Source: a virus
Length of the DNA stretch: 24,148 nucleotides
Reading direction: 5' to 3' (one strand)
IMG/VR virus record: IMGVR_UViG_3300032069_000052
Coordinates: 1-24,148 of that record
Part shown: positions 4,387 to 20,183 of the stretch, piece after piece
Layout: each line of letters opens with the position of its first letter
Position numbering within the stretch: the first letter of the stretch is position 1
The notes under the pieces: generated by a model
What the model saw: the letters and a program-made list of their open reading frames with translations, nothing else
The model's database searches: none
Told to the model about the DNA's origin: nothing
Position numbers and translations under genes: made by a program

Positions 4387-4719
4387 TTACCCTCCTGTTA
4401 AATAATCCGTAACGCCGAGTATGCCCCTGGCTACATAGGCCCGCATAGCACGGTTGTCGTTATCCAAGTAGGCCTCCAATGCCTGATGATGTTCGGTAAG
4501 AAGGATATCTACCCTGATTTTTCTCAAGATGCGTTGGTCTAGCGGACGTGGTTCTTTGGTAACCGGGTCTTCTACGAGCCGATTGATTTCCCCCTTGCAG
4601 AAAATTCCCCATCGTTGTGATTTGTCCAGGTACCTGACTTCAAGATCGGGATTGATAGTTCTGAGTTCCCTAACGAACCATCCCGGCGGAGAGAAAAGCC
4701 CCCTACATATTGTGTCCAT
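4387..4719 (-). CDS. conserved-type phage protein, 110 aa, first gene of packaging operon
   Basis: Residues near the N-terminus, PGWFVRELRTINPDLEVRYLD followed by RWGIF, match a pattern I associate with small conserved phage proteins (WLV-EL--I-P-L-VRW...RW-I) of unknown function. A helical C-terminal half follows. The frame is open to 4767, but the operon's promoter -35 and -10 boxes lie in 4739-4767, inside that extension. The ATG at 4719 has GGGG eight bases upstream and is therefore taken as the true start. The predicted mRNA leader is only about 13 bases. It heads a chain of coupled genes running into terS and terL, so an accessory packaging role is plausible but unproven. Confidence 0.75.
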   Translation of the reverse strand: MDTICRGLFSPPGWFVRELRTINPDLEVRYLDKSQRWGIFCKGEINRLVEDPVTKEPRPLDQRILRKIRVDILLTEHHQALEAYLDNDNRAMRAYVARGILGVTDYLTGG

Positions 4720-4738
4720 ATCATCAACCCCAACTAGT

Positions 4739-4767
4739 ATAATACGAGCCCGGTTATAATTTGTCAA
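4739..4767 (-). promoter_or_regulatory. sigma-70-like promoter of the packaging operon
   Basis: Read on the minus strand, TTGACA (4767-4762) is followed after 17 bases by TATTAT (4744-4739), five of six matches to the -10 consensus. The expected start point is near 4732, about 13 bases before the ATG at 4719. This is the best promoter in the window and implies transcription by host RNA polymerase. Confidence 0.8.
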
Positions 4768-7966: not shown

Positions 7967-9187
7967 ATGGCCATTACTGGTGCAACTTATTCTACTATCG
8001 CAAAAGCCCTGAAGACCCAGTACCTTCCCGTTCTTCAGAAACAGGTCGAGAAAGAGGTTCAGACCTACGACCTTTTCAAGAAAGAGAGCGAGGGGGTCAA
8101 TTCTCAGGACTTCTATATCAAGATGTTCAAGAGCTATCCCCAGGGTGTTGGTCCTGCGGCCCGTGGTGAAGCGTTGCCGACTCCCAGTCCGGCGGGTTAC
8201 GAGGAAGCTAAGGTTTATACTAAGGACAATTACGGCGTCGTGGAATTCGATGCCAAGATCGAGGACGAGGGCTCTGGGATCGTGGACATCATCGACTTCG
8301 AGATGGAGGCAATGCAAGAATCCTTCATCAAGGAACTCAACTTCCAGCTTGCTTATGGTGGACCCGCCGGTGCGCGTTCTACCGTTGCGTCTTTGTCGGG
8401 CCAGGTCATTACCGTTGATGCTCCTGTTGGTCGAGAAACCGAATTCATTTATCCCAATATGTATATTGACGTTTACAATGGAGCCTCGGTTCGCCAGGGA
8501 GGACTCAAGGTCACCGTGGTAAACAAGGCCACCAAGGAGATTACCGTTGTCGGAACGGTTACGGGCATTGCGGACGGCGATCTTATCTATCGAGCAGGCG
8601 CGAAAGATCTCGGCATGATGGGGCTTAATACCCTCATCGGTAACACGGGTACCATCCAGAATATCGACTCCGCAGCCGCAGGAAACGACTGGTGGCAGTC
8701 CATCGTCGTGGACAAGTCGAACAAGTGGGGTACAAGCGCAGCAGACTTCCTGGATTCAATTCAGGACATCATCGATCAGATTGAGACTCAAGGCCCCAAT
8801 GCCAAGGTCAATCTGATTTATGGATGGCCGCTTTTCACCCGTCAGTACGTTTCAGTCCTCGAGGCCAAACGACAGATCGTCAACACTCTCGAATTCAAGG
8901 CCGGACGCAAAGGGATTGCCTATGTCAATGTTGACAGGGAAATCCCGATTCTCAAAGACAGATACCTTCCTTACTACACGGTCTTCTTTCTGGATACCAC
9001 AAAAATCAAAATCTATACGCAGAAAGGTATCCATTGGGAGGAAAAGGGCGGTGGAATCCTCAAGGTTCTCGAACGGAAGGACATTTACACGGCCTGGTTG
9101 AAATTCTATGCTGAAATGGGCACCGTGCAGCGCAATGGTGCCGGAAAGTGGATCAATGCTGGAACGACCGTCGGGGATTACTCCTGA
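7967..9187 (+). CDS. major capsid protein (HK97 fold)
   Basis: Lattice-forming head protein. The 406 residues, the position after the scaffold, and the layout fit the HK97 fold. The layout is an N-terminal helix (about 10-35, ALKTQYLPVLQKQVEKEVQ), an E-loop-like region with GVGPAARGEALPTPSPAGYEEAK, and an acidic spine-helix segment around IEDEGSGIVDIIDFEMEAMQESF. An inserted beta domain at about 145-210 follows, then a C-terminal A-domain with YLPYYTVFFLDTTKIKIYT. The protein ends with an AEMGTVQRNGAGKW strand. No long N-terminal delta domain is seen, consistent with a separate scaffold. The ribosome site is ACGAGG eight to nine bases before the ATG. A strong terminator follows, as expected for the most abundant virion protein. 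Confidence 0.92.
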   Translation: MAITGATYSTIAKALKTQYLPVLQKQVEKEVQTYDLFKKESEGVNSQDFYIKMFKSYPQGVGPAARGEALPTPSPAGYEEAKVYTKDNYGVVEFDAKIEDEGSGIVDIIDFEMEAMQESFIKELNFQLAYGGPAGARSTVASLSGQVITVDAPVGRETEFIYPNMYIDVYNGASVRQGGLKVTVVNKATKEITVVGTVTGIADGDLIYRAGAKDLGMMGLNTLIGNTGTIQNIDSAAAGNDWWQSIVVDKSNKWGTSAADFLDSIQDIIDQIETQGPNAKVNLIYGWPLFTRQYVSVLEAKRQIVNTLEFKAGRKGIAYVNVDREIPILKDRYLPYYTVFFLDTTKIKIYTQKGIHWEEKGGGILKVLERKDIYTAWLKFYAEMGTVQRNGAGKWINAGTTVGDYS

Positions 9188-9221
9188 GAATTAGTCAAAT
9201 CCATTTTCGTCATTCGCTATA

Positions 9222-9268
9222 GAGATGCGGGGGGACGGTTCCAAGACGTCCCCCCCCGTCTCGTTTTT
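9222..9268 (+). terminator. rho-independent terminator after the capsid gene
   Basis: A stem of about 16 pairs (9222-9237 with 9247-9262) has one C-C mismatch and a central GGGGGGACG/CGTCCCCCC block. The nine-base loop is GTTCCAAGA, and the right arm is followed by GTTTTT. It lies 35 bases past the capsid stop and immediately before the ribosome site of the next gene. Downstream genes must then rely on read-through or on an unseen promoter. Confidence 0.85.
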
Positions 9269-9280
9269 AGGGGGGTTGCG

Positions 9281-9739
9281 ATGAAAAAATATTTTTCCAT
9301 CTTTTTGGGATTTCTTCTTTTGTCCTTTCCGGCCTATCTCCTATTTGCCAATACCCATGTTGCTTTTCTCGCGGCGGATATTTCCGTCAATGCCGGCACT
9401 ACTAAGGTCAACGGGACAGATTTCACTTCAGCCGAGGTCTATATAGCAAATCATGGCCTGAAAGAAGTTAGTGCGATCAAGATTACATTCACTAGAGCAG
9501 CCGGATCTTCTTCTACGGTTGATTTTGAATTTCAGGTTTCATTGGATGGCGGAACTAGTTGGTCAACTGCTTATTATGTCAAAGTACAATCTACTACAGA
9601 CGAAACTGCTGTTTCCAATGTTGTTCGCAAAATCCAATTAGTTAATATTTACGGCATTACTCATATCCGGCTTTATCGTGTTGTCAATAACGATTCGGGT
9701 AATAACCTAACGGCGGTCAACGCCTCAGTCAGTTTCTAA
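9281..9739 (+). CDS. Sec-exported small beta protein, 152 aa
   Basis: MKKYF plus a hydrophobic core (about 7-22) and LLFA before N24 form a clear signal peptide with likely cleavage after residue 23. The mature part of about 129 residues is Ser/Thr/Val-rich with alternating strands (EVYIANHGLKEVSAIKITFT, VDFEFQVSLDGGTSW, ITHIRLYRVVNN), suggesting a beta-sandwich. It lacks a lipobox, so it would be periplasmic or secreted. Spacing (16 bases) ties it to the next exported protein. A capsid-decoration protein would fit the location and fold, but a Sec signal argues against cytoplasmic head assembly unless the prediction is misleading. AGGGGGG (9269-9275) is its ribosome site and overlaps the end of the terminator's T-run. 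Confidence 0.75.
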   Translation: MKKYFSIFLGFLLLSFPAYLLFANTHVAFLAADISVNAGTTKVNGTDFTSAEVYIANHGLKEVSAIKITFTRAAGSSSTVDFEFQVSLDGGTSWSTAYYVKVQSTTDETAVSNVVRKIQLVNIYGITHIRLYRVVNNDSGNNLTAVNASVSF

Positions 9740-9755
9740 AAACAAGGAGTCGGCC

Positions 9756-12506
9756 TTGAAGAAAATCCTAGCGATTTCTAGTATTCTACTTTTCTTTTTA
9801 CTATCCCCATTTTTGGCCTTCGCCACCCAATACTACGTTTCTAAGACTGATGGCAGCAATGGGTATAACGGTCTCTATCCTACCTACCAGGGTGGGGTAA
9901 ACGGCCCGTGGCTGACCCTCTCTTACGCTATGACGAACGGCTGGGGGGCGGATGCGATTGTAAGTGTTTGTACCGATGGAAAATTTCGGGAGACCGTAAC
10001 AATCCCGAGTTCGGGCACGGCGGGTCACTACAAAACACTCAACACCTATGGTACGGGGGCAAAGCCTCAAATTCTTGGTTCAACTCAGCTCACCGGCTGG
10101 ACCCCAGATACCGGCCATTATGTCTGTACCTCTTCATTGACCGTGGCGCTTTACTTTATCAACACCAACGGCACGGTCAAGTGGGGCCATAAAAAGGCGA
10201 GTAAGGCTGCCTGTATTGCCGAATATGACTGGTACGGAAACGGGACAAACATCTGGTGTTTCGTTCCTGCTGGTGGGGAGCAAGACCCCGATAGCCGATA
10301 CATAAGTATTGAGGGTGCGACCAGGGATTATTGCATCAGCAATGCTAAGACATATATCACGATTGATGGGTTCGAAACAGCCTATGCGGTTCAGGCTGGA
10401 ATTTGGTTTGACGGCACCACCGCCAACTACGGCATCATTAAAAACTGCCTCTCTCATCATATTGGAACATACCCGACTGGATATAATGCGGGTGTCGGAG
10501 ACTGCATAAGGTTCACAGCAAGTTATGGTTTAATCCAATCCAGCACTTTGCATGACGGATCTAATCATGGGATTTATGTCCATGAGAAAAGCGGGCAAAA
10601 TTGTGTCAATAATATCATAGAGGGCCTTCACGTTTACGATTGCTACCACGTTGGCATCGACGTTTTGATTTATTTCACCGGCAGGCTCGGAAGTGGTCAT
10701 ATTGTTCGCTATAATTACGTCTACTGTACGGATGATTGGGACAGTGTTTCCGGCGTTGATATGGGAGGCATAAGTCTCCACAACCAATACACAGCCAGCA
10801 ATTTAGATGCCTGCCAGGTCTATTACAACGCGATCTGGAACATGATGGGGAAGGGGATCGCAGTCGAACACAACGTGACCAACACCATCATCGAAAATAA
10901 CACTTGTTACAAATCAAATCCGAATTGCGGGGCAATTTATGCCCCTGGAATTTACGTCGCTCTCAGTGCTACTTCCGGAACAGTTCTTAAAAATAATGTT
11001 TCGGTCGACTGGAAAGACGAGTGCCTGTTTGTGGGAGCCCGTGCAAATGTGTCTGGCTGTGATAACAACTGTTGGTATCAAAGTGCGGGCGGGACGGCTG
11101 TTTATACCTACACGGATATTAGCCCAAACTCTTTCCATTATGACGATTTTACTCTTTGGAAAAGTAAAACCGGCTGGGGCACTCCGTCTGGATACGCGGA
11201 TGCCGCCAGCAAGTGGGAAGATCCGAAATTCGTTTCAACGACTGACTATCATCTTCAAGCAAGTTCTCCCTGTATAGATACTGGCATTGCTGTTGGCCTT
11301 ACTCAAGACATTGAAGGGTATTCCGTACCCACGGGCGGAGCGCCTGACATGGGGGCATACGAGTATCAAGGAACCGTTGAAATCAACATAACGGACGGGG
11401 TGAATAATATTGCTGATGGTGGGACATTTGATTTCGGTTCAAGGGTTGTTGCTTCAAATACAGATCAGGAATTCACCATCCAAAACCTCGGCACTGCCGA
11501 CCTAACGCTAAGCGGTTCTCCGATCATTACTATCACAGGGACCAATGCGGATCAGTTCAGTGTCCAGGTGCAGCCGACGACTCCGATTACTGGTGGTAAC
11601 CATGTTCACTTCACTTTGAGATTCACTCCGACCACGGCCGGGGCGAAGGTTGCGGCGATCTCGATTGCCAATAACGACGCAGACGAAAACCCCTATGATA
11701 TTAACCTTACGGGCACGGGTATTTCAGCCGCCGAGATCAATGTCAAACAAAACACTACCAACATTCCAGATGGCGAAAGCTATGCTTTTGGAAACCAGCG
11801 TTTAAGCACAAACACAGATGTTGTTTTCACCATAGAAAATCTAGGTGGATCTGATCTAACTTTAAGTGGAAGTCCGATCATAATCCTCGGTGGAGCCGAC
11901 GCTTCACAGTTTAGTGTTCAGGCCCAGCCTACCAGCCCTATCACTCCGGGAAATTACACCACTTTTACCATTCGGTTTACCCCAACTTCGATAGGCGATA
12001 AAACCGCAACCACTACGATTACCAACAATGACTCTGATGAGGGAACATACGATCTTACCTTCTTCGGAACCGGAATAGCCCCCGAAATCAATATTAAACA
12101 AGGGACTGACAACATTACATCTGGCGGGACGTATGCTTTCGGGACGCATGCTGTGAATACAAATACCGATGTTGTTTTTACTATTGAAAATATTGGAACC
12201 GATTATCTGACATTAAGTGGCACTCCGATCATAGTTATAACTGGTTCGGGGGCGGCTCATTATAGTGTTGAAGCACAGCCGACAACTCCTGTTTCTGCAC
12301 CAAAAGGGAGCACAACCTTTACGATTCGGTTTAAGCCAACTTCCACGGGGTTGAAATCTGCATCTATATCCATAGCCAACGATGATACTGACGAAAACCC
12401 ATATGTCATTAATTTTACAGGAACGGGGGAAGCCGATACTTCAAGTCTTATTTTTCCGGCCAGAACTCCTGAGGTTACTCCTGCAATCACGCCGGAAATA
12501 AAATAG
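9756..12506 (+). CDS. exported beta-helix protein with choice-of-anchor Q and D-type domains, 916 aa
   Basis: It starts with TTG at 9756, five to six bases after a strong AAGGAG; no ATG is near. Residues 1-23 are a textbook signal peptide ending AFA before T24. About 25-500 look like a right-handed parallel beta-helix (asparagine-ladder stretches such as NNIIEGLHVYDC, YNYVYCTDD and IENNTCYKS), as in polysaccharide-acting or surface proteins. About 500-540 carry the SPCIDTG...DIEG...GAPDMGAYEYQG signature of choice-of-anchor Q domains. Three repeats of about 117 residues start near 542, 660 and 777 (EIN, AFG or DFG, TIENLG, LSGSPI, FSVQ, FTPT, INLTGTG) and read as Ig-like choice-of-anchor D/ASH domains. 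Phage tailspikes often use beta-helices, but a Sec signal and anchor domains are typical of bacterial surface proteins, suggesting acquisition from a host. No catalytic residues are assigned. Confidence 0.85.
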   Translation: MKKILAISSILLFFLLSPFLAFATQYYVSKTDGSNGYNGLYPTYQGGVNGPWLTLSYAMTNGWGADAIVSVCTDGKFRETVTIPSSGTAGHYKTLNTYGTGAKPQILGSTQLTGWTPDTGHYVCTSSLTVALYFINTNGTVKWGHKKASKAACIAEYDWYGNGTNIWCFVPAGGEQDPDSRYISIEGATRDYCISNAKTYITIDGFETAYAVQAGIWFDGTTANYGIIKNCLSHHIGTYPTGYNAGVGDCIRFTASYGLIQSSTLHDGSNHGIYVHEKSGQNCVNNIIEGLHVYDCYHVGIDVLIYFTGRLGSGHIVRYNYVYCTDDWDSVSGVDMGGISLHNQYTASNLDACQVYYNAIWNMMGKGIAVEHNVTNTIIENNTCYKSNPNCGAIYAPGIYVALSATSGTVLKNNVSVDWKDECLFVGARANVSGCDNNCWYQSAGGTAVYTYTDISPNSFHYDDFTLWKSKTGWGTPSGYADAASKWEDPKFVSTTDYHLQASSPCIDTGIAVGLTQDIEGYSVPTGGAPDMGAYEYQGTVEINITDGVNNIADGGTFDFGSRVVASNTDQEFTIQNLGTADLTLSGSPIITITGTNADQFSVQVQPTTPITGGNHVHFTLRFTPTTAGAKVAAISIANNDADENPYDINLTGTGISAAEINVKQNTTNIPDGESYAFGNQRLSTNTDVVFTIENLGGSDLTLSGSPIIILGGADASQFSVQAQPTSPITPGNYTTFTIRFTPTSIGDKTATTTITNNDSDEGTYDLTFFGTGIAPEINIKQGTDNITSGGTYAFGTHAVNTNTDVVFTIENIGTDYLTLSGTPIIVITGSGAAHYSVEAQPTTPVSAPKGSTTFTIRFKPTSTGLKSASISIANDDTDENPYVINFTGTGEADTSSLIFPARTPEVTPAITPEIK
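11379..12431 (+). repeat. three tandem Ig-like coding repeats (about 350 bp each)
   Basis: Units begin near 11379, 11733 and 12084. They share protein signatures EIN-K/T, Y/FDFG or AFG, FTI-NLG, LSGSPI, FSVQ-QPT-PI, FT-RF-PT and NLTGTG, with partial DNA similarity around the LSGSPI and FT-RF segments. The spacing is regular (354 and 351 bp). They are diverged tandem duplications within one gene rather than recent copies. Confidence 0.75.
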
Positions 12507-12516
12507 GGGGTAAAAC

Positions 12517-12699
12517 ATGCCTGCAAAATTAGAACGAAAATTGAAGGCCGAGGCGAAAAAGAAATTTCCGAAAGACGAGGAACGGCAAGATGCCTACGTC
12601 GAAGGAACACTTCGCAAGACGGGTTGGATTCCATCGACACAAAAAAAACATCGTAAACGTCATAGCACGTTTGATAAAAACAAGGAGAAAGAAAAATGA
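12517..12699 (+). CDS. small basic phage protein, 60 aa
   Basis: The protein is lysine/arginine-rich (MPAKLERKLKAEAKKKFPK at the start, KKHRKRH near the end) with a middle segment RQDAYVEGTLRKTGW. Small basic proteins with a Y-G-T-RKTGW centre are, from memory, common in phage and metagenomic contigs, without a firm function. The ATG at 12517 follows AGGGGG that overlaps the stop of the previous gene. Its own stop overlaps the next ATG (ATGA). The charge suggests nucleic-acid binding or a small virion component; no fold is recognised. Confidence 0.7.
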   Translation: MPAKLERKLKAEAKKKFPKDEERQDAYVEGTLRKTGWIPSTQKKHRKRHSTFDKNKEKEK

Positions 12700-12927
12700 A
12701 TTTAAGCGAAATTATACACGAGCAAGTTACATGGCGGAATCCCGCATCTGATTTTAGATACGGGGGTTGGCACAGATTCTATAGCCGATATTAAACACAA
12801 ACTTTTCCTACAAGATATCGGCATTGGCATGAACTTGGTTCAATGGAAGGAGAAGATCGGAAGACAATTAATCGCCTGTGAAGATAGGCATGGAGAAATC
12901 TTCATTCGTTTGAGGAAAACAAAATGA
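12696..12927 (+). pseudogene. small gene split by a one-base frameshift (76 aa if joined)
   Basis: An ATG at 12696 overlaps the previous stop (ATGA) and opens a frame that ends early at TAA 12792-12794 (32 aa). A second open frame, shifted by one base, continues from about 12754 to the TGA at 12925-12927, which overlaps the ATG of the next gene (again ATGA). Removing one T from the TTTT run at 12752-12755 joins them into a coherent 76-residue product running ...NPASDLDTGVGTDSIADIKHK... The overlaps at both outer ends show the whole interval was one coupled gene. It may be a real mutation, an assembly indel, or +1 frameshifting at TTT-AGA. Function unknown. Confidence 0.65.
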
Positions 12928-13553
12928 ATAGAGGCGCAATAAGAACACGGGCAAGAATCTTTTTGGACGAACCAGCCGAAAATCGTTGGACTGATGTAAA
13001 CCTTAACAGTTTAATCGAGGAAGCCAAGAATGAAGTTGCTGCCATTTTCCTTTCCCTGGACGAAAGTTATTATCTTAAATCTGACCATTTTGATCTTGAA
13101 GCCGGAAAAGAACTTTATGACCTCCCTGCCGATTTTATCCGGCTCAAGGAAATTCATGACGAGGATGAAGAAGTCCCCGTCAAGGTTTCTGCTTCAAAGC
13201 GCGTAGAGTATTTAAGCCGTGGCGAACTGGTTGCTTTTTATTTTGAGAAAAGCCAAATCGGGTTTTTGGATATTCCAGCCCAGGCAGAAGTTATCAACTA
13301 TAAATATGTTTATTCGCCGGCAGAGTTGTCAGATGACGATTCAATTCCAGATGTACCCGTGTATTTGGGGCATGACCTGATTGCCGTTCTCACGGCTATT
13401 CAGGCCCTGGATCTGGACGAAGACGAAGATAATCCACTCATTCGGAAAGCACAGCGACTTGAAGACAGGATACGGACTACCTATTACAAACGGACAACCC
13501 ATCTTCCTCAGTACGGTGAATCGGACGAGGAGCTTGATCCGATAGACGATTGA
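12924..13553 (+). CDS. head-completion / portal adaptor protein (P22 gp4-like)
   Basis: The protein opens with RTRARIFLDEPAENRWTDVNLNSLIEEAKNEVAAIFLSLDESYY, a helical start followed by a W-TD--L---I--A pattern seen in podovirus head-completion and tail-accessory adaptors. A beta region with LYDLPADFIRLKEIHDE follows, then an acidic C-terminus (residues about 196-209). The 209-residue length suits this family. Such adaptors bind the portal after packaging, seal the head and seat the nozzle. GAGG precedes the ATG by eight bases, and the stop lies two bases from the next gene's ATG, so adaptor and nozzle are coupled. Identification rests on motif style and position between capsid and nozzle genes. 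Confidence 0.75.
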   Translation: MNRGAIRTRARIFLDEPAENRWTDVNLNSLIEEAKNEVAAIFLSLDESYYLKSDHFDLEAGKELYDLPADFIRLKEIHDEDEEVPVKVSASKRVEYLSRGELVAFYFEKSQIGFLDIPAQAEVINYKYVYSPAELSDDDSIPDVPVYLGHDLIAVLTAIQALDLDEDEDNPLIRKAQRLEDRIRTTYYKRTTHLPQYGESDEELDPIDD

Positions 13554-13555
13554 CG

Positions 13556-15397
13556 ATGAAAAGAAAAAGAGGGCTCACACCTACCGACAAATTCAATTTC
13601 GGCGGTGGTCTGGTTACGATGATGGCTAAGACCAGGCTTGCTCCTAACCAACTTGTTGCCGCAAAGAATGTCAATATTTATGTTGACGGCGAGATCGAGG
13701 TTCGCGGTGGGTGTGCGAAAGTTTCAACCGTGGCTTTCGGGACAGAGATTGATCGTTTTATTCACTTCAAGACAGATGTCTACGACAAGATCGTGGCTTA
13801 TGGTGGAACATATATTAAGCGATTAGACAAGGGCACGCCTGATGTTTGGACACAACTTGACGGGTCCATGCCCGATACAGAGGAATTGCGAAGTTTGGAT
13901 ATAGGTCAAAACAAATTGTATATAGGGGCAACAGATAGCATCGGGGTTAGAAAGTATGTCCGTAATCAATCTGCCCTATGGAAGGCCGGGATCACAAAAC
14001 CCGCCGCCGCTATTACCGCAGCAGATGGTGGGGCAGGAGTCCTGAGTGGTACTTATTACTGGTACTGGACCTATTACAATTCTCTGACGGGCGAAGAAAG
14101 CGACCCCTCCCCCATCTCGGGAGTTCTCGTGGTCACGGACAAACAGGTGACGTTGAGTAGTTTCGTGGCCAGTACGGATCCACAGATTGACAAGATTAGG
14201 ATATATCGAAACCCCACGGGTGTTTCTACCTGGTACTATGTTGGGCAAAAGACCAACGACGTCAATAACTTTACGGACAATGTGGCCGATAATAACCTAG
14301 GCCCAGAGATTAGTTTTAAAAATGGCGAACCTCCCAAGGCCGCAATTCTCAGGTACCATCTTAACCGTATGTTTTATGTCAATGCGGACTATCCGAGTCG
14401 GCTCTATTGGTCCGAGGCGCTGTTGCCCGGATCGGTTCATATCAACAGTTGGCAAGGCATTGAAGACAGGGATGGTGGAAAAATCCTTGCACTCGGTTCC
14501 AGTTATGACAATATCATAGTCTATAAAAATACGGGCGTCTTCTGCTTTTCCTTTGATGTCGGTAATCCCGACAATAGTTCCTATATTCCCCTCACAAGCG
14601 AATACGGAATCGTGGCTCCGATGTCGGTGGCTCATGTTGGTGAAGATGAAATTTTTCTATCCTCGGAAGGGCTGAAGCTTATCACCAATGGCGGAACAAA
14701 GATTGACGAAATAGAGATTCCCATTATTGTTCCAGAGGGCATGAAAAATATCAATCCCATCACCAGCATTTTCAGAGAGTGCAAACAGGATGCAATATCA
14801 AAGGCCGTCGGCATCTATTATGAAGCCAAAAATCAATATCATATCTCGGTTCCCTATTACTCGAATAGCAATAATGACTTAACCCTGGTTTGGCACAAGG
14901 ACGTAAATGCCTTTACCATTCACGAAGATTTTAACGTGAAGGCTACGGGACTCTACCGCGAATATGATAACCGGTTGCTCTACCGAAGCCATAATGATCA
15001 ATACATTTATCAACATGACATTGGGTTTACCGATGATAACGTGGATATTACCTTCAAATTGCAGACGGGATGGAATACCCTCGATGGAATCAATGACCGG
15101 AAAAATATTCGTCTGATGTTCCCGACTGTTTATGGGGCAGACGGCGTGGTTCTAAACTATAAGATTTTCAAGGATTTTGAAATAGATGGCCCGGTAGTTT
15201 CATTGACTCACCAGGGAGCTTCCTATTGGGGGTATGCTCATTGGGGACAGAACTATTGGGGGGCTGCCGGGGAAGTGACATATCGAAAACCAACCTGTGT
15301 GAAGGGTCGCATCTTCTCAACGCAATTTTATGGCACGGTCAATAAGAAAGTCGGACTTGCCGATTATCAGTTTTTCTACCAGCCAAAGAGTTTGTAA
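13556..15397 (+). CDS. tail nozzle / packaged-DNA stabilisation protein (P22 gp10-like)
   Basis: The N-terminus, FNFGGGLVTMMAKTRLAPNQLVAAKNVNIYVDGEIEVRGG, is a familiar start of podovirus DNA-stabilisation and nozzle proteins. Much of the rest (613 residues) is beta-rich with repeated aromatic and Asp/Gly turns, compatible with a beta-propeller around the tail channel. Near residues 165-230 a GTYYWYWTYYNSLTGEESDPSP segment with KIRIYR resembles a fibronectin-type insert. Its partner is the adaptor gene just upstream. The ATG at 13556 is used; the frame also allows a TTG at 13550 overlapping the adaptor stop. The C-terminal end (ASYWGYAHWGQNYWGAAG) is Trp/Tyr-rich. It terminates in TAATG with the next gene. 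Confidence 0.8.
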   Translation: MKRKRGLTPTDKFNFGGGLVTMMAKTRLAPNQLVAAKNVNIYVDGEIEVRGGCAKVSTVAFGTEIDRFIHFKTDVYDKIVAYGGTYIKRLDKGTPDVWTQLDGSMPDTEELRSLDIGQNKLYIGATDSIGVRKYVRNQSALWKAGITKPAAAITAADGGAGVLSGTYYWYWTYYNSLTGEESDPSPISGVLVVTDKQVTLSSFVASTDPQIDKIRIYRNPTGVSTWYYVGQKTNDVNNFTDNVADNNLGPEISFKNGEPPKAAILRYHLNRMFYVNADYPSRLYWSEALLPGSVHINSWQGIEDRDGGKILALGSSYDNIIVYKNTGVFCFSFDVGNPDNSSYIPLTSEYGIVAPMSVAHVGEDEIFLSSEGLKLITNGGTKIDEIEIPIIVPEGMKNINPITSIFRECKQDAISKAVGIYYEAKNQYHISVPYYSNSNNDLTLVWHKDVNAFTIHEDFNVKATGLYREYDNRLLYRSHNDQYIYQHDIGFTDDNVDITFKLQTGWNTLDGINDRKNIRLMFPTVYGADGVVLNYKIFKDFEIDGPVVSLTHQGASYWGYAHWGQNYWGAAGEVTYRKPTCVKGRIFSTQFYGTVNKKVGLADYQFFYQPKSL

Positions 15398-15906
15398 TGA
15401 AGATACCGTTTGTTTTGGGAGAAGTTAAAAGCGATAAGAACTTTGAACAAGTAAACTCTGCCCTTGAACAAGCAAACTCTGCCCTTGAAGGCAAAGAACC
15501 CGCTATTACGCCCGGAGGGCCAGACCAATATTTGACAGGAGATAAAAGTTGGCGGACGGTTTGGCCCGTAGGATCTGTTTTTATCGCTGTCGTAGCGACA
15601 GATCCGGCAACACTCTTGGGGTTTGGAACGTGGAGCCGAATTGCTCAGGGTAGAGTCCTCATCGGACAGGATGGCGCAGATACTGATTTTGACGTTGCCG
15701 AAGAAACCGGAGGTGCGAAAACAATAAATCTTGCCCACACGCACGATGATCACACTCAGGTGGAGGCTAGGCAGGGAACAAGCACCGGGAAGGTTTTGAC
15801 CGGCATAGGGGCAGACAATCATACTCTCCATGCGTCAAACTTAAGTGCGACTCAGAGTATCATGAATCCATATTTCGTGGTTTATATCTGGAAAAGAACA
15901 GCATGA
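15397..15906 (+). CDS. tail-tip / fibre protein with gp10 C-terminal-type domain, 169 aa
   Basis: Residues 16-31 contain two identical-spaced heptads (EQVNSAL EQANSAL), likely a short trimeric coiled coil. Residues about 57-169 match the pattern of the T4 gp10/short-fibre C-terminal domain: PVGSVFIAV, TLLGFGTWSRIAQGRVLIG, the DTDFDVAEETGGAKT loop, a His cluster HTHDDH (114-119) and the ending NPYFVVYIWKRT. In related fibres such His pairs bind metal at the trimer axis. It would sit at the distal tail as a receptor-facing or needle-like element. The start is shared with the nozzle stop (TAATG). Being short, it may be an accessory tip rather than the main fibre, which is probably the gene at 18831. 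Confidence 0.8.
   Translation: MKIPFVLGEVKSDKNFEQVNSALEQANSALEGKEPAITPGGPDQYLTGDKSWRTVWPVGSVFIAVVATDPATLLGFGTWSRIAQGRVLIGQDGADTDFDVAEETGGAKTINLAHTHDDHTQVEARQGTSTGKVLTGIGADNHTLHASNLSATQSIMNPYFVVYIWKRTA
15448..15489 (+). repeat. 21-bp tandem duplication encoding two heptads
   Basis: CAAGTAAACTCTGCCCTTGAA (split as 15448-15468) is repeated at 15469-15489 with one T/C difference. The unit is exactly seven codons, one coiled-coil heptad, so unit number would change coil length in whole turns. Confidence 0.85.
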
Positions 15907-17056: not shown

Positions 17057-17866
17057 ATGAAAAGAGTATTCTGTGTTTTTCTCGCCTTGCTGATGATGGG
17101 GGGGGCCCTGCTTGCAGACGTTTCTCCCAAAACCATGAAGGAAATTAGGCAAGCGACCTGTGCGATTGTCAGTTATTTTGAAATAAACGAGACAAAACCG
17201 ATGCAAGGACGGCAGGGAGAATCAGGGAAAAATCATCCATTTATCACGGTTCCGTTAGGCCGAATACAAGACAGTCCTAACTATCTGGTGGCCTACGTCG
17301 GCGCGGGGACGTTATTGAAAGATAACTTTATCCTTACCGTGCGGCACATGATTATCTCGGAAAGCGGAGAAGACGCGACTAATATCTATGCCATATTTGA
17401 AGGCATAGATCATCCAATCGGATGCAATGTTGTTGCCGTCAGCAAGGGAGAAAAATTTTGTGATGATTATGCGATTTTGAAGCCACGGGAAAATATACCC
17501 AGGAAGGGTTTGAAAATCGCCAAACATGAATTCAAATATGGTGAATGGATCGTCTTCAATGGCTCCGCGGGAGGCCTGGCTTTTTTTGCCAGAGTGGGAC
17601 ATGCCATTGATTTACAGAGTTATTTTTACAGGGATGATAATACCAACACCCTCCACCTGGGAACTTTTGAAGCCTTCCCCTTCTTGACGGTTTATCCCGG
17701 TGGCCCCGGTGATTCGGGGGGCTCAATTAAAAACGAGGACGGAGAGATTATCGGGCTCATGTACTGTGGAATTGCGGTGTACGAGGAAGAATATGTATTT
17801 TCAAATCCCCTGTCAATGTTAAAGGAGTTTCTGTTTAAGTCCGGCTTAGAGGAATTGCTGGAATGA
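17057..17866 (+). CDS. secreted trypsin-like serine protease (S1 fold), 269 aa
   Basis: Residues 1-20 are a signal peptide (MKRVF, hydrophobic core, LLA before D21). The catalytic triad is readable: H97 in FILTVRHM (compare LTAAHC), D137 in CDDYAIL, and S220 in GGPGDSGGSI, the oxyanion-hole signature. GAGTLLKDNFILTV and GEIIGLMYCGIAVY match the flanking strands of the S1 barrel. Cysteines at 35, 123, 135 and 237 could pair outside the cytoplasm. The product is thus expected to act in the periplasm or outside. Its ATGA overlap with the next gene links it to a GWxTD lipoprotein. The ribosome leader GCAAAAGGGGAAAG is identical to that of the gene at 23315. A secreted S1 protease is unusual in a phage lysis region; the substrate is unknown. 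Confidence 0.85.
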   Translation: MKRVFCVFLALLMMGGALLADVSPKTMKEIRQATCAIVSYFEINETKPMQGRQGESGKNHPFITVPLGRIQDSPNYLVAYVGAGTLLKDNFILTVRHMIISESGEDATNIYAIFEGIDHPIGCNVVAVSKGEKFCDDYAILKPRENIPRKGLKIAKHEFKYGEWIVFNGSAGGLAFFARVGHAIDLQSYFYRDDNTNTLHLGTFEAFPFLTVYPGGPGDSGGSIKNEDGEIIGLMYCGIAVYEEEYVFSNPLSMLKEFLFKSGLEELLE

Positions 17867-18519
17867 CTAAAAAACTTGGTCATTTGACTAAAATATTTGG
17901 TTTGTTTTTGACCATCACAAGTCTCTATTCTTGCGTAACATATAACCTGGAAAAGAAACTTAACACTAAGCTTCGGGAGTGGTATTCCATCCATTCCATC
18001 CTAATGCAAACCCGCTTGCCCAACGGCCAGATCGAAGCCGTTTATTTCTTGCACCTACCGGAAAATATGCAGATTGCATACATACGTATATTCTGGAAAA
18101 TCAGGTTTACCTTACTGGATCAGGACAAGGAATTTGAAGCACGGGTTGGGTGGGCGAATCGAATATTTGGGGGAGAGAAAGCCGGAAAGGGATACAGCAC
18201 TGATCGTGGCCAACTTTTTCTGCTGTGCGGTGCCCCATTTCAGGTTTCCTTTTTTGATTCCAGGGGAGAGGAAGAAGGTTCAATTTTTACGGGCAGCATT
18301 GAGCTTGAGCCCGGAACCATCATGGCCTGGTACTACTTCTATGCGGGGCAATTCATAGGGTTTTATTTTGAATCCGACGGTATGGGGGGATGGAGAACCA
18401 GCCAAAATTTTAGATTTCCCCATTCGGAAAATCAGGCATATTTCCTGGCTATTTGTCAATGGGAACTTGCCCCAACGGAAGAAGGATGGATGCTCTGGCA
18501 ACAGGAGGTTACAAAATGA
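17863..18519 (+). CDS. GWxTD-domain lipoprotein, 218 aa
   Basis: The N-terminus MTKKLGHLTK plus a hydrophobic core ends in a lipobox L21-Y22-S23-C24, so the mature protein would be lipidated at C24. Residues about 91-125 (FEARVGWANRIFGGEKAGKGYSTDRGQLFLLCGAP) match the GWxTD domain core, with GYSTDRG (110-116) for the usual GW-TDRG. The C-terminal part is aromatic-rich (AWYYFYAGQFIGFYF, WEL near the end). GWxTD proteins are known from outer-membrane bacteria but their activity is not established. The start overlaps the protease stop and the end overlaps the next ATG (ATGA both times). An outer-membrane partner or target guide for the protease is an inference from coupling. Confidence 0.78.
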   Translation: MTKKLGHLTKIFGLFLTITSLYSCVTYNLEKKLNTKLREWYSIHSILMQTRLPNGQIEAVYFLHLPENMQIAYIRIFWKIRFTLLDQDKEFEARVGWANRIFGGEKAGKGYSTDRGQLFLLCGAPFQVSFFDSRGEEEGSIFTGSIELEPGTIMAWYYFYAGQFIGFYFESDGMGGWRTSQNFRFPHSENQAYFLAICQWELAPTEEGWMLWQQEVTK

Positions 18520-18830: not shown

Positions 18831-20183
18831 ATGCTTTTAACGATACCGAATACCTTTCAAAACGGAACTGGCGCGGGCAATATCATTGACGCGACCCAGA
18901 TGAATAGCAACTTTAGCGCGGTTGTGACGGTCCTCAACGGCAACCTTGAAAAGAACAATGTCAAGACCGGATCTTCAATATGCCTGGATGATACCGTTAT
19001 GACAATTTCGGCGGCCTGGGTCTTTTCGACCAACCCTGTTTTTAACGCCGGGGCAATTGCCGATAATTACTTGACTTCCAATATTCCCAAAAAAGATGCG
19101 GCCAACGTCTTTGCGGCCCAGCAAGAGTTTGCGGCGGGTATAAACCTGGATAGGCAGCAAGCTCAAAATTTCGTCTGTGAAAAGGTTGCCAGTCTTCCCG
19201 GTGGAACATCCCAAGATATTGGGCGTATTGTCTATTGCACGGGGGATAACAAGTTTTATGGTTGGAATGGAACGGCCTGGCAACAGATTGACTATACGGG
19301 CGGATACACGGGCGGGGCGGTTCGTGGCTATTCGGCAACCCTGGACCTGGATAACGGGAACAGTTCAAAACTCTGGTTTAAAACCGAAGGGGCAAGCCCC
19401 ACCGTCAAGATTGCCCTGATGGGACTTATGTTCCCAAAGCGGTTTTATACGGAACTTGGGTATCACAATCATGGTATTACCGATGGCGGACATGCCCACA
19501 ATGCCGCCGGAGCTCACAACCATCACGTTGATCTTGGTTCGCATACTCATTCGGGAACCTTCGGGTCTTCAAGTCATACCCACAATGTAAGCGGAACTAC
19601 GGGAAGCGAATCTTCTCATACCCATGGAGGCGGAACATATAGTACCGGAACATCTGCTACTCACGTCCATCATAGCGTACAAATAGGAAGTGATGAAACA
19701 GGGGCATCGGGGGCACATAGCCATACTAACTTTGTTGGTTCTTCCGGCGCGGGTTCAGCCCACAGTCATACCTTTTCAGATACCTCCGACGGACCCTCGG
19801 CGACAGCTTCAGTTAGTAGTACCGACCTTGGTGGGGTTTACTCAGCCTATACCAATCCGGGGCCAACGGATTCAGCGATTACGGGCATTACCATCAACGC
19901 TGCCGGAATTAATGCCGGGACACTTAGCGCATCTCAAAAACAATATGCCGATAGTCTAACCGTTTCAATTGACGGAACAGATGTTACGGCGGCCATTCTT
20001 TCGGCAACGGGTTGGTCACAGATCGGCGACGGTACGGCCACTCATGATTTCCATGTCAGTGGTACAGGGGAGATGAACGCTTCGGCATGGAAAAGCTATG
20101 CGGCGGGATTCCATGTTATCGAAATTACAGAGCCGACAACCGATAGGGGTTGCCGGATCATGATTCACATAGAGACTTTTTAA
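18831..20183 (+). CDS. tail fibre with His-x-His metal-binding needle, 450 aa
   Basis: The N-terminus (IPNTFQNGTGAGNIIDATQMNSNFSAVVTVLNGNL) has the form used by phage fibres to join the tail. A middle segment with IGRIVYCTGDNKFYGWNGTAWQQID is a common fibre module. Residues about 212-313 hold nine HxH motifs (HNH, HAH, HNH, HTH three times, HVH, HSH twice) spaced by Gly/Ser/Thr. This is the pattern of the T4 gp37 needle, where such histidines from three chains bind iron along the axis. The C-terminus (DRGCRIMIHIETF) would form the tip. It is the likely receptor-binding fibre. Its start follows GGGAG and the lysis-like cassette lies upstream, so tail genes are split around lysis genes. Confidence 0.88.
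   Translation: MLLTIPNTFQNGTGAGNIIDATQMNSNFSAVVTVLNGNLEKNNVKTGSSICLDDTVMTISAAWVFSTNPVFNAGAIADNYLTSNIPKKDAANVFAAQQEFAAGINLDRQQAQNFVCEKVASLPGGTSQDIGRIVYCTGDNKFYGWNGTAWQQIDYTGGYTGGAVRGYSATLDLDNGNSSKLWFKTEGASPTVKIALMGLMFPKRFYTELGYHNHGITDGGHAHNAAGAHNHHVDLGSHTHSGTFGSSSHTHNVSGTTGSESSHTHGGGTYSTGTSATHVHHSVQIGSDETGASGAHSHTNFVGSSGAGSAHSHTFSDTSDGPSATASVSSTDLGGVYSAYTNPGPTDSAITGITINAAGINAGTLSASQKQYADSLTVSIDGTDVTAAILSATGWSQIGDGTATHDFHVSGTGEMNASAWKSYAAGFHVIEITEPTTDRGCRIMIHIETF

Follow-up and report, generated by a model that had tools for sequence, protein, structure and literature searches.

A phage gene pair behind the capsid gene predicted to encode two Sec-exported proteins, one of them related to spike-like phage proteins

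The 24,148-base IMG/VR record IMGVR_UViG_3300032069_000052, which was analyzed as a whole and is called the window here, belongs to an uncultivated tailed phage and carries genes for a P22/SU10-type portal, a head scaffolding protein, a phrog_14242 capsid protein, an SU10-type adaptor and an internal-virion-protein-like product. The subject of this study is a pair of open reading frames (ORFs), ORF1 and ORF2, which lie directly behind the capsid gene and both start with a predicted Sec signal peptide (SP). Between the end of the capsid gene (9187) and the start of the adaptor gene (12924), ORF1, ORF2 and two very short ORFs are present. Since ORF2 starts 16 nt after the stop of ORF1, both genes look like one operon. 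The features of this region are:

7967-9187, plus strand: major capsid protein, upstream context of the slot (phrog_14242, E=1.7e-42)
9222-9268, plus strand: candidate intrinsic terminator in the gap between the capsid gene and ORF1 (15-bp stem-loop and TTTTT; motif scan)
9281-9739, plus strand: ORF1, ATG start, predicted exported protein of 152 aa, predicted beta-sandwich, weakly discoidin/CBM-like
9281-9349, plus strand: predicted Sec signal peptide of ORF1, residues 1-23, cut between LFA and NT (SP caller; helix 2-23 in the model)
9744-9749, plus strand: Shine-Dalgarno sequence AAGGAG of ORF2, 6 nt upstream of the TTG start (direct reading)
9756-12506, plus strand: ORF2, TTG start, predicted exported beta-helix protein of 916 aa with an anchor-Q and three anchor-D domains
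9756-9824, plus strand: predicted Sec signal peptide of ORF2, residues 1-23, cut between AFA and TQ (SP caller)
9825-11237, plus strand: right-handed beta-helix domain (AlphaFold2 core pLDDT mostly 60-84; structural matches Z 21-25)
11238-11369, plus strand: choice-of-anchor Q domain closing the beta-helix (NF041518, E=1.4e-9, residues 495-538)
11376-12428, plus strand: three tandem choice-of-anchor D/HYDIN-like immunoglobulin (Ig) domains (NF012200, E=1.5e-51, three stretches; PF22544, three stretches)
12924-13553, plus strand: SU10-type head-tail adaptor, downstream border of the slot (PF24175, E=1.8e-16)

An initial annotation of this DNA had placed two proteins with signal peptides directly behind the capsid gene and had described the larger one as a beta-helix with an anchor-Q domain and three anchor-D Ig repeats. 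Both descriptions were confirmed, the first by the ORFs and the SP prediction, the second by NF041518, NF012200 and the core of the AlphaFold model.

The signal peptides read MKKYFSIFLGFLLLSFPAYLLFA followed by NTH for ORF1 and MKKILAISSILLFFLLSPFLAFA followed by TQYY for ORF2, and in both N-termini a lysine-containing n-region is followed by a hydrophobic core and then by an end of A-X-A type. The SP caller, which was positive for both, is simple, crude and purpose-written, using n-region charge, h-region hydropathy and the -3/-1 rule. Of 7 known E. coli SPs, the caller recovered 6; its background was 4 of 562 ORFs (0.7%) from loci of related phages, and when the same N-termini were shuffled, which preserves their unusual hydrophobic make-up, 2-4% of the resulting sequences were called as well. 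The sole other homologue of ORF1 that was found, a protein of 157 aa in the phage L004 (IMG/VR 3300033489_000157), shows 52% identity and has kept its SP. Here, the identity amounts to 28% in the first 25 residues and 59% in the rest, and the hydrophobic character of the SP is retained. Relatives of ORF2 without an SP start with MATPYYVS or MATYYVS, which corresponds to the residue after the predicted cut of ORF2. Furthermore, cellular relatives of the ORF2 helix appear to be exported: L009 and L028 were called as Sec SPs, L008/L010 and L011 possess a hydrophobic leader just before the helix, and L007 has an archaeal pilin-like N-terminus. Because the SP hydrophobicity of ORF1 is kept in its homologue, the SP-less relatives start at the cut of ORF2 and the cellular relatives are exported, real export is supported, and both proteins seem to be built for the Sec pathway. 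This argues against an ordinary cytoplasmic assembly into the virion, since Caudoviricetes virions are assembled in the cytoplasm. No described example of a signal peptide on a phage tail or spike protein was found in the open-access literature searched, which is weak evidence.

Within the cellular relatives, the region L007:2016-7491 stems from a metagenome-assembled genome, apparently archaeal by its pilin-like N-termini; ORF2-type helix domains are located behind these N-termini, beside gyrase genes.

The AlphaFold model of ORF2 (region 22-541) is good in the core only, where residues 178-420 form a beta-helix (pLDDT mostly 60-84). Structural matches of this core are alginate epimerases, the pectate lyase Pel9A, phage tailspikes and GH136 enzymes, with Z values of 25.2 for AlgE6, 24.7 for Pel9A, 24.1 for the Dettilon tailspike and 21.3 for the lacto-N-biosidase LnbX. 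On sequence level, the profile including bacterial relatives (A6) matches GH136/GH120 (7v6m, E=3.6e-20; 3vst, E=2.3e-14), whereas the phage-only profile of the helix matches these enzymes over its N-terminal 80 residues only. The structure prediction, which had been proposed for this protein with a view to active-site clefts, bore out the beta-helix; a catalytic site could not be assigned. A YDC(Y/H) patch of the helix was considered as active site and rejected; the same rung motif is present in the xylosidase alignment and looks structural. The anchor-D domains span approximately 11376-11720, 11730-12074 and 12078-12428, and the match to HYDIN/VesB-like Ig domains reached E=4.3e-18. Reading and domain searches of the C-terminus, which ends in EADTSSLIFPARTPEVTPAITPEIK, revealed no LPXTG, PEP-CTERM or T9SS domain as anchor or sorting signal; in contrast, the cellular relative L009 ends in a T9SS-type tail. 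At the other end, no N-terminal head- or tail-binding domain was recognized in the domain searches, and the helix family starts directly after the SP.

The nearest relatives of ORF2 are found in siphophages, namely in L002/L003, which carry a further copy as well (L034, L035), and in L006. Over the helix domain, ORF2 shows 36-43% identity to L002/L003/L034/L006, and L002 shares 43% over residues 22-736. The L002 protein consists of a helix, an anchor-Q and an anchor-D domain, behind which another helix and a head-protein domain of phrog_240 (E=4.9e-20) are located. None of these phage relatives (L002/L003, L034, L035, L006) has an SP. In the tree, ORF2 joins the phage beta-helix proteins without SP with a support of 98/94, which places ORF2 in a spike-like phage clade where an SP is exceptional. 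A search of about 590 cellular genomes belonging to two phyla yielded, at E<=1e-20, a helix relative in a single genome other than the seed. The initial annotation had taken the architecture as the mark of a bacterial surface protein and had concluded on a role at the surface of the infected cell. The former view is not borne out, as ORF2 groups with phage proteins and has no C-terminal anchor or sorting signal. The latter stands insofar as Sec export speaks against virion assembly in the cytoplasm, but a description as surface protein is incomplete for a protein that is, by its sequence, a phage spike relative carrying a putative secretion signal.

The codon usage of ORF2 lies within the range of the window phage's own genes, and a recent capture from a host is not supported by composition. 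Among the relatives, L002:10001-14578 and L003:10001-11935 encode versions of 1525 and 644 aa of one spike-like gene with the same surrounding genes. One version has no anchor-D domain and no second helix, and the head-protein-like end is kept in both. Domains seem to have been lost or exchanged here within a single lineage.

For the slot behind the capsid gene, 52 loci with homologous capsid genes were fetched. Slot ORFs were defined as those between capsid and adaptor or just behind, using the first 5 kb where the adaptor was not found. The space is variable among these loci and reaches up to 7.7 kb where the adaptor was found. In Jasmine, a tailspike gene is found there together with an esterase gene, Shocker has an esterase beside a beta-helix-like hydrolase, and in ctEqG8 the space is occupied by genes for repeat-rich proteins. 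Using the same caller, none of 147 slot ORFs from 49 loci, many of which are closely related so that independent cases are fewer, carries an SP, compared to two of two in the window. The window, with two SPs in a slot known for spikes, is an outlier.

A comparable arrangement is present in L004, a siphophage with an HK97-type capsid unrelated to the capsid of the window. Its ORF1 homologue is located between the head-tail genes and the tail terminator, and directly behind follows an SP-bearing protein of 441 aa with tailspike-type repeats (phrog_4636, E=1.3e-8). A scan for the latter yielded 79 loci and 76 copies with complete starts. Here, an SP is present solely in the L004 gene itself (fetched twice), and the 74 other relatives are without one. 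The L004 gene and an SP-less gene of L091, which lies right behind a virion structural gene, have a segment of 296 bp in common with 81% DNA identity (about 90% of residues 58-165). This common segment indicates that SPs are joined to fibre modules. Judged from these genes, two unrelated phages, one window and one partner phage, carry the same small putatively exported protein beside differing spike-type proteins whose SP is lacking in their relatives.

The fibre segment common to L004:10486-11811 and L091:5161-6495 comprises about 100 residues. Behind the exported pair and still inside the head-tail block, L004 has two further ORFs of 136 and 72 aa (L004:11964-12590) that look SP-like or membrane-type.

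For ORF1, the AlphaFold2 model (pLDDT 64.5) predicts a beta-sandwich. Its fold matches reach a Z of at most 7.0, to many CBM22/CBM32/discoidin-type folds, and no hit at E<=0.001 was obtained when the model was searched against the folds in BFVD. The match to F5_F8_type_C (PF00754) stays below the Pfam curated cut-off (E=2.4e-4, 21.7 bits vs. 28.2). Homologues were not found in bacterial and archaeal genomes, and cultured phages gave no match to ORF1 or ORF2 in a direct tblastn. By fold, both proteins look like carbohydrate-handling modules, which is no proof of function.

Export, and not incorporation into virus particles, is probably the fate of both proteins. The best reading is that spike-like glycan-recognition modules are redirected out of the cell and act at the envelope of the infected cell or after lysis. 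We lean toward a role of the exported proteins outside the virion on host glycans; a specific step of receptor masking or trimming, taken alone, is a considerably more tentative proposal, and the precise role may be masking, cleavage or exclusion. Mechanistically, ORF1 and ORF2 would be expressed late, transcribed together with the head genes at a level lowered by the terminator. Both would then be translocated by Sec, and cleavage would release mature ORF2, with an N-terminus corresponding to the start of the phage relatives without SP. The beta-helix and the small, weakly assigned beta-sandwich could engage a polysaccharide of the host surface or envelope. Held in the envelope or released by lysis, the proteins might occupy or trim the glycan used by the phage's own spikes, so that progeny would not be lost on debris and infected cells and rival phages would adsorb less well. 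The nearest alternative to this last step would be a free depolymerase activity helping spread. More broadly, it is conceivable, though doubtful at present, that tailed phages of different lineages carry secreted spikes, consisting of spike or fibre modules with a Sec SP and a small exported beta-sandwich, which serve as decoys or glycan trimmers. As part of this joint proposal, and equally tentatively, they would protect progeny and exclude rivals.

Several points argue against the proteins working outside the virion. In a host with an outer membrane, Sec by itself would bring them no further than the periplasm, and ORF2 is without a recognized outer-membrane or wall anchor. The discoidin/CBM-like assignment of ORF1 is weak. 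In the alignment with GH136/GH120, no catalytic residues can be assigned in ORF2, and at the weakly aligned place no equivalent of D568/D575, the catalytic acid pair of ErLnb136 (PMC7335108), was recognized. Finally, the phage relatives of ORF2 and its slot point to virion spikes. ORF2, and also ORF1, could accordingly be spike or decoration proteins which join the particles via the periplasm at or after lysis, or the SP could be the leftover of a cellular ancestor, with a fraction escaping export and being packaged. The phage clade (98/94), the fusion of the L002 relative to the phrog_240 domain (E=4.9e-20) and the tailspike, hydrolase and esterase genes in the slot of Jasmine and Shocker would fit to this. 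For the initial annotation, tailspike or decoration proteins among the homologues would have spoken against a surface role; homology and position go half of this way, but these homologues are without the SP of ORF2. The cytoplasmic assembly of Caudoviricetes virions is difficult to reconcile with such a spike, and strong SPs on both neighbours together with the SP kept in L004 argue for selected export. Furthermore, no virion-attachment domain was recognized between the SP of ORF2 and the helix, and the window harbors other fibre-type genes without SP (15397-15906, Gp10_C, and 18831-20183). We regard a virion location as unlikely.

About equally improbable appears a pair of secreted exoenzymes, in which ORF2 is a free depolymerase and ORF1 a carbohydrate-binding helper, digesting capsule or exopolysaccharide so that progeny can leave and spread. 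Polysaccharide lyases, epimerases and glycosidases with a beta-helix dominate the structural matches, and the profile link to GH136/GH120 appears once bacterial relatives are included. Engineered T7 releasing an endosialidase or depolymerase gains on capsulated hosts when its genomes grow apart from competitors, but is selected against by cheats in mixed growth (PMC3564837). Activity does not follow from a common fold, however, no catalytic residues were identified in ORF2, and the match of the phage-only profile is confined to those 80 N-terminal residues. By far the least probable is a host-benefit (moron) gene of bacterial origin for an adhesin or surface protein expressed in lysogeny. The export of the cellular helix relatives (several Sec SPs, one archaeal pilin-like N-terminus) and the frequency of anchor-D and anchor-Q domains in bacterial surface proteins fit to it. 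Yet ORF2 does not stand out from the genes of the phage itself in codon usage, its nearest relatives are phage proteins, the position in a late head operon is unlike a moron, a C-terminal anchor is missing in ORF2 and no integrase was recognized in the window.

Further genes of the window have been related to the pair. The terminator in front of ORF1 is real, with a strong hairpin at 9222-9262, TTTTT at 9264-9268 and a folding z=-2.5 for 9185-9280, although such motifs are common in the same motif scan; the lower expression that had been deduced from it is an inference. The proposal of four exported products in one structural block holds for the products, since the trypsin-like protease (17057-17866, GDSGG motif) has an SP and the lipoprotein (17863-18519, GWxTD domain) a lipobox-like LYSC, but not for the block. 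These two genes form a separate group about 4.5 kb downstream of ORF1-ORF2, directly behind holin and transglycosylase genes, and are possibly related to lysis or exclusion. A search for homologues of either gene in the four records of related phages found none, and the cassette was therefore defined without them. In viral_contigs, no close relatives of the window phage were found by capsid (single sequence) or terminase. At 12697-12923, a short reading frame (about 30 codons) terminates, after which a different frame is open up to the adaptor gene; this may be a frameshift or a decayed gene. On the minus strand, an ORF at 4387-4767 resembles, by eye, the gene of about 155 aa that many phages of this capsid type carry just before the adaptor; in the window, this gene is missing from its usual place. 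The 450-aa protein of 18831-20183, probably a fibre, contains a stretch rich in Gly-His-Ser/Thr-His repeats and matched no family except, weakly, a PHROG of unknown function.

Several known systems resemble the pair in part. The relatives in L002/L003/L034 and L006 (IMG/VR 3300031707_000011, 3300031952_000013, 3300032046_000072) share the helix domain, in L002 also the anchor-Q and one anchor-D domain, and lie among head and tail genes; unlike ORF2, they are without SP, occur with unrelated capsid types and are fused to the phrog_240 domain in L002/L003. The L004 cassette has the same order inside the head-tail block, but its second protein contains fibre-type repeats and no beta-helix, the phage is an HK97-type siphophage and two membrane-type ORFs follow. 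Arthrobacter phage Jasmine (gp17 tailspike, gp18 esterase) and Microbacterium phage Shocker (gp28-gp30) carry beta-helix-like spikes or hydrolases in the same place behind a homologous capsid gene, but without SPs and without detectable sequence homology to ORF2. The tailspike gp49 of Pseudomonas phage LKA1 combines a beta-helix O-antigen lyase with a discoidin-like jelly roll in the virion (PMC5701251), a combination that the beta-helix of ORF2 and the weakly discoidin-like ORF1 may resemble; gp49 is one virion-attached chain for which no secretion signal is mentioned in that study, whereas the window appears to encode two separate exported chains. The endolysin Lys44 of phage fOg44 is a late protein with a true signal peptide that is exported by Sec (PMC6116005), but it is a lysis enzyme and not a spike-type protein. 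Secreted bacterial GH136 (LnbX) and GH120 xylosidase enzymes share the fold and a distant sequence-profile match with ORF2, but their catalytic residues were not recognized in it. Anchor-D domains are not known from GH136/GH120 glycosidases.

Spike-type glycan-binding proteins are normally regarded as parts of the particle. If the export proposed here is true, a natural phage gene would send a spike module to the envelope, and this would show a secreted use as decoy, exclusion factor or shared exoenzyme. The latter represents the tragedy of the commons which has been studied with engineered T7 (PMC3564837); given a natural example, this question could be put to the test. Tailspike homology alone would then not place a protein in the virion.

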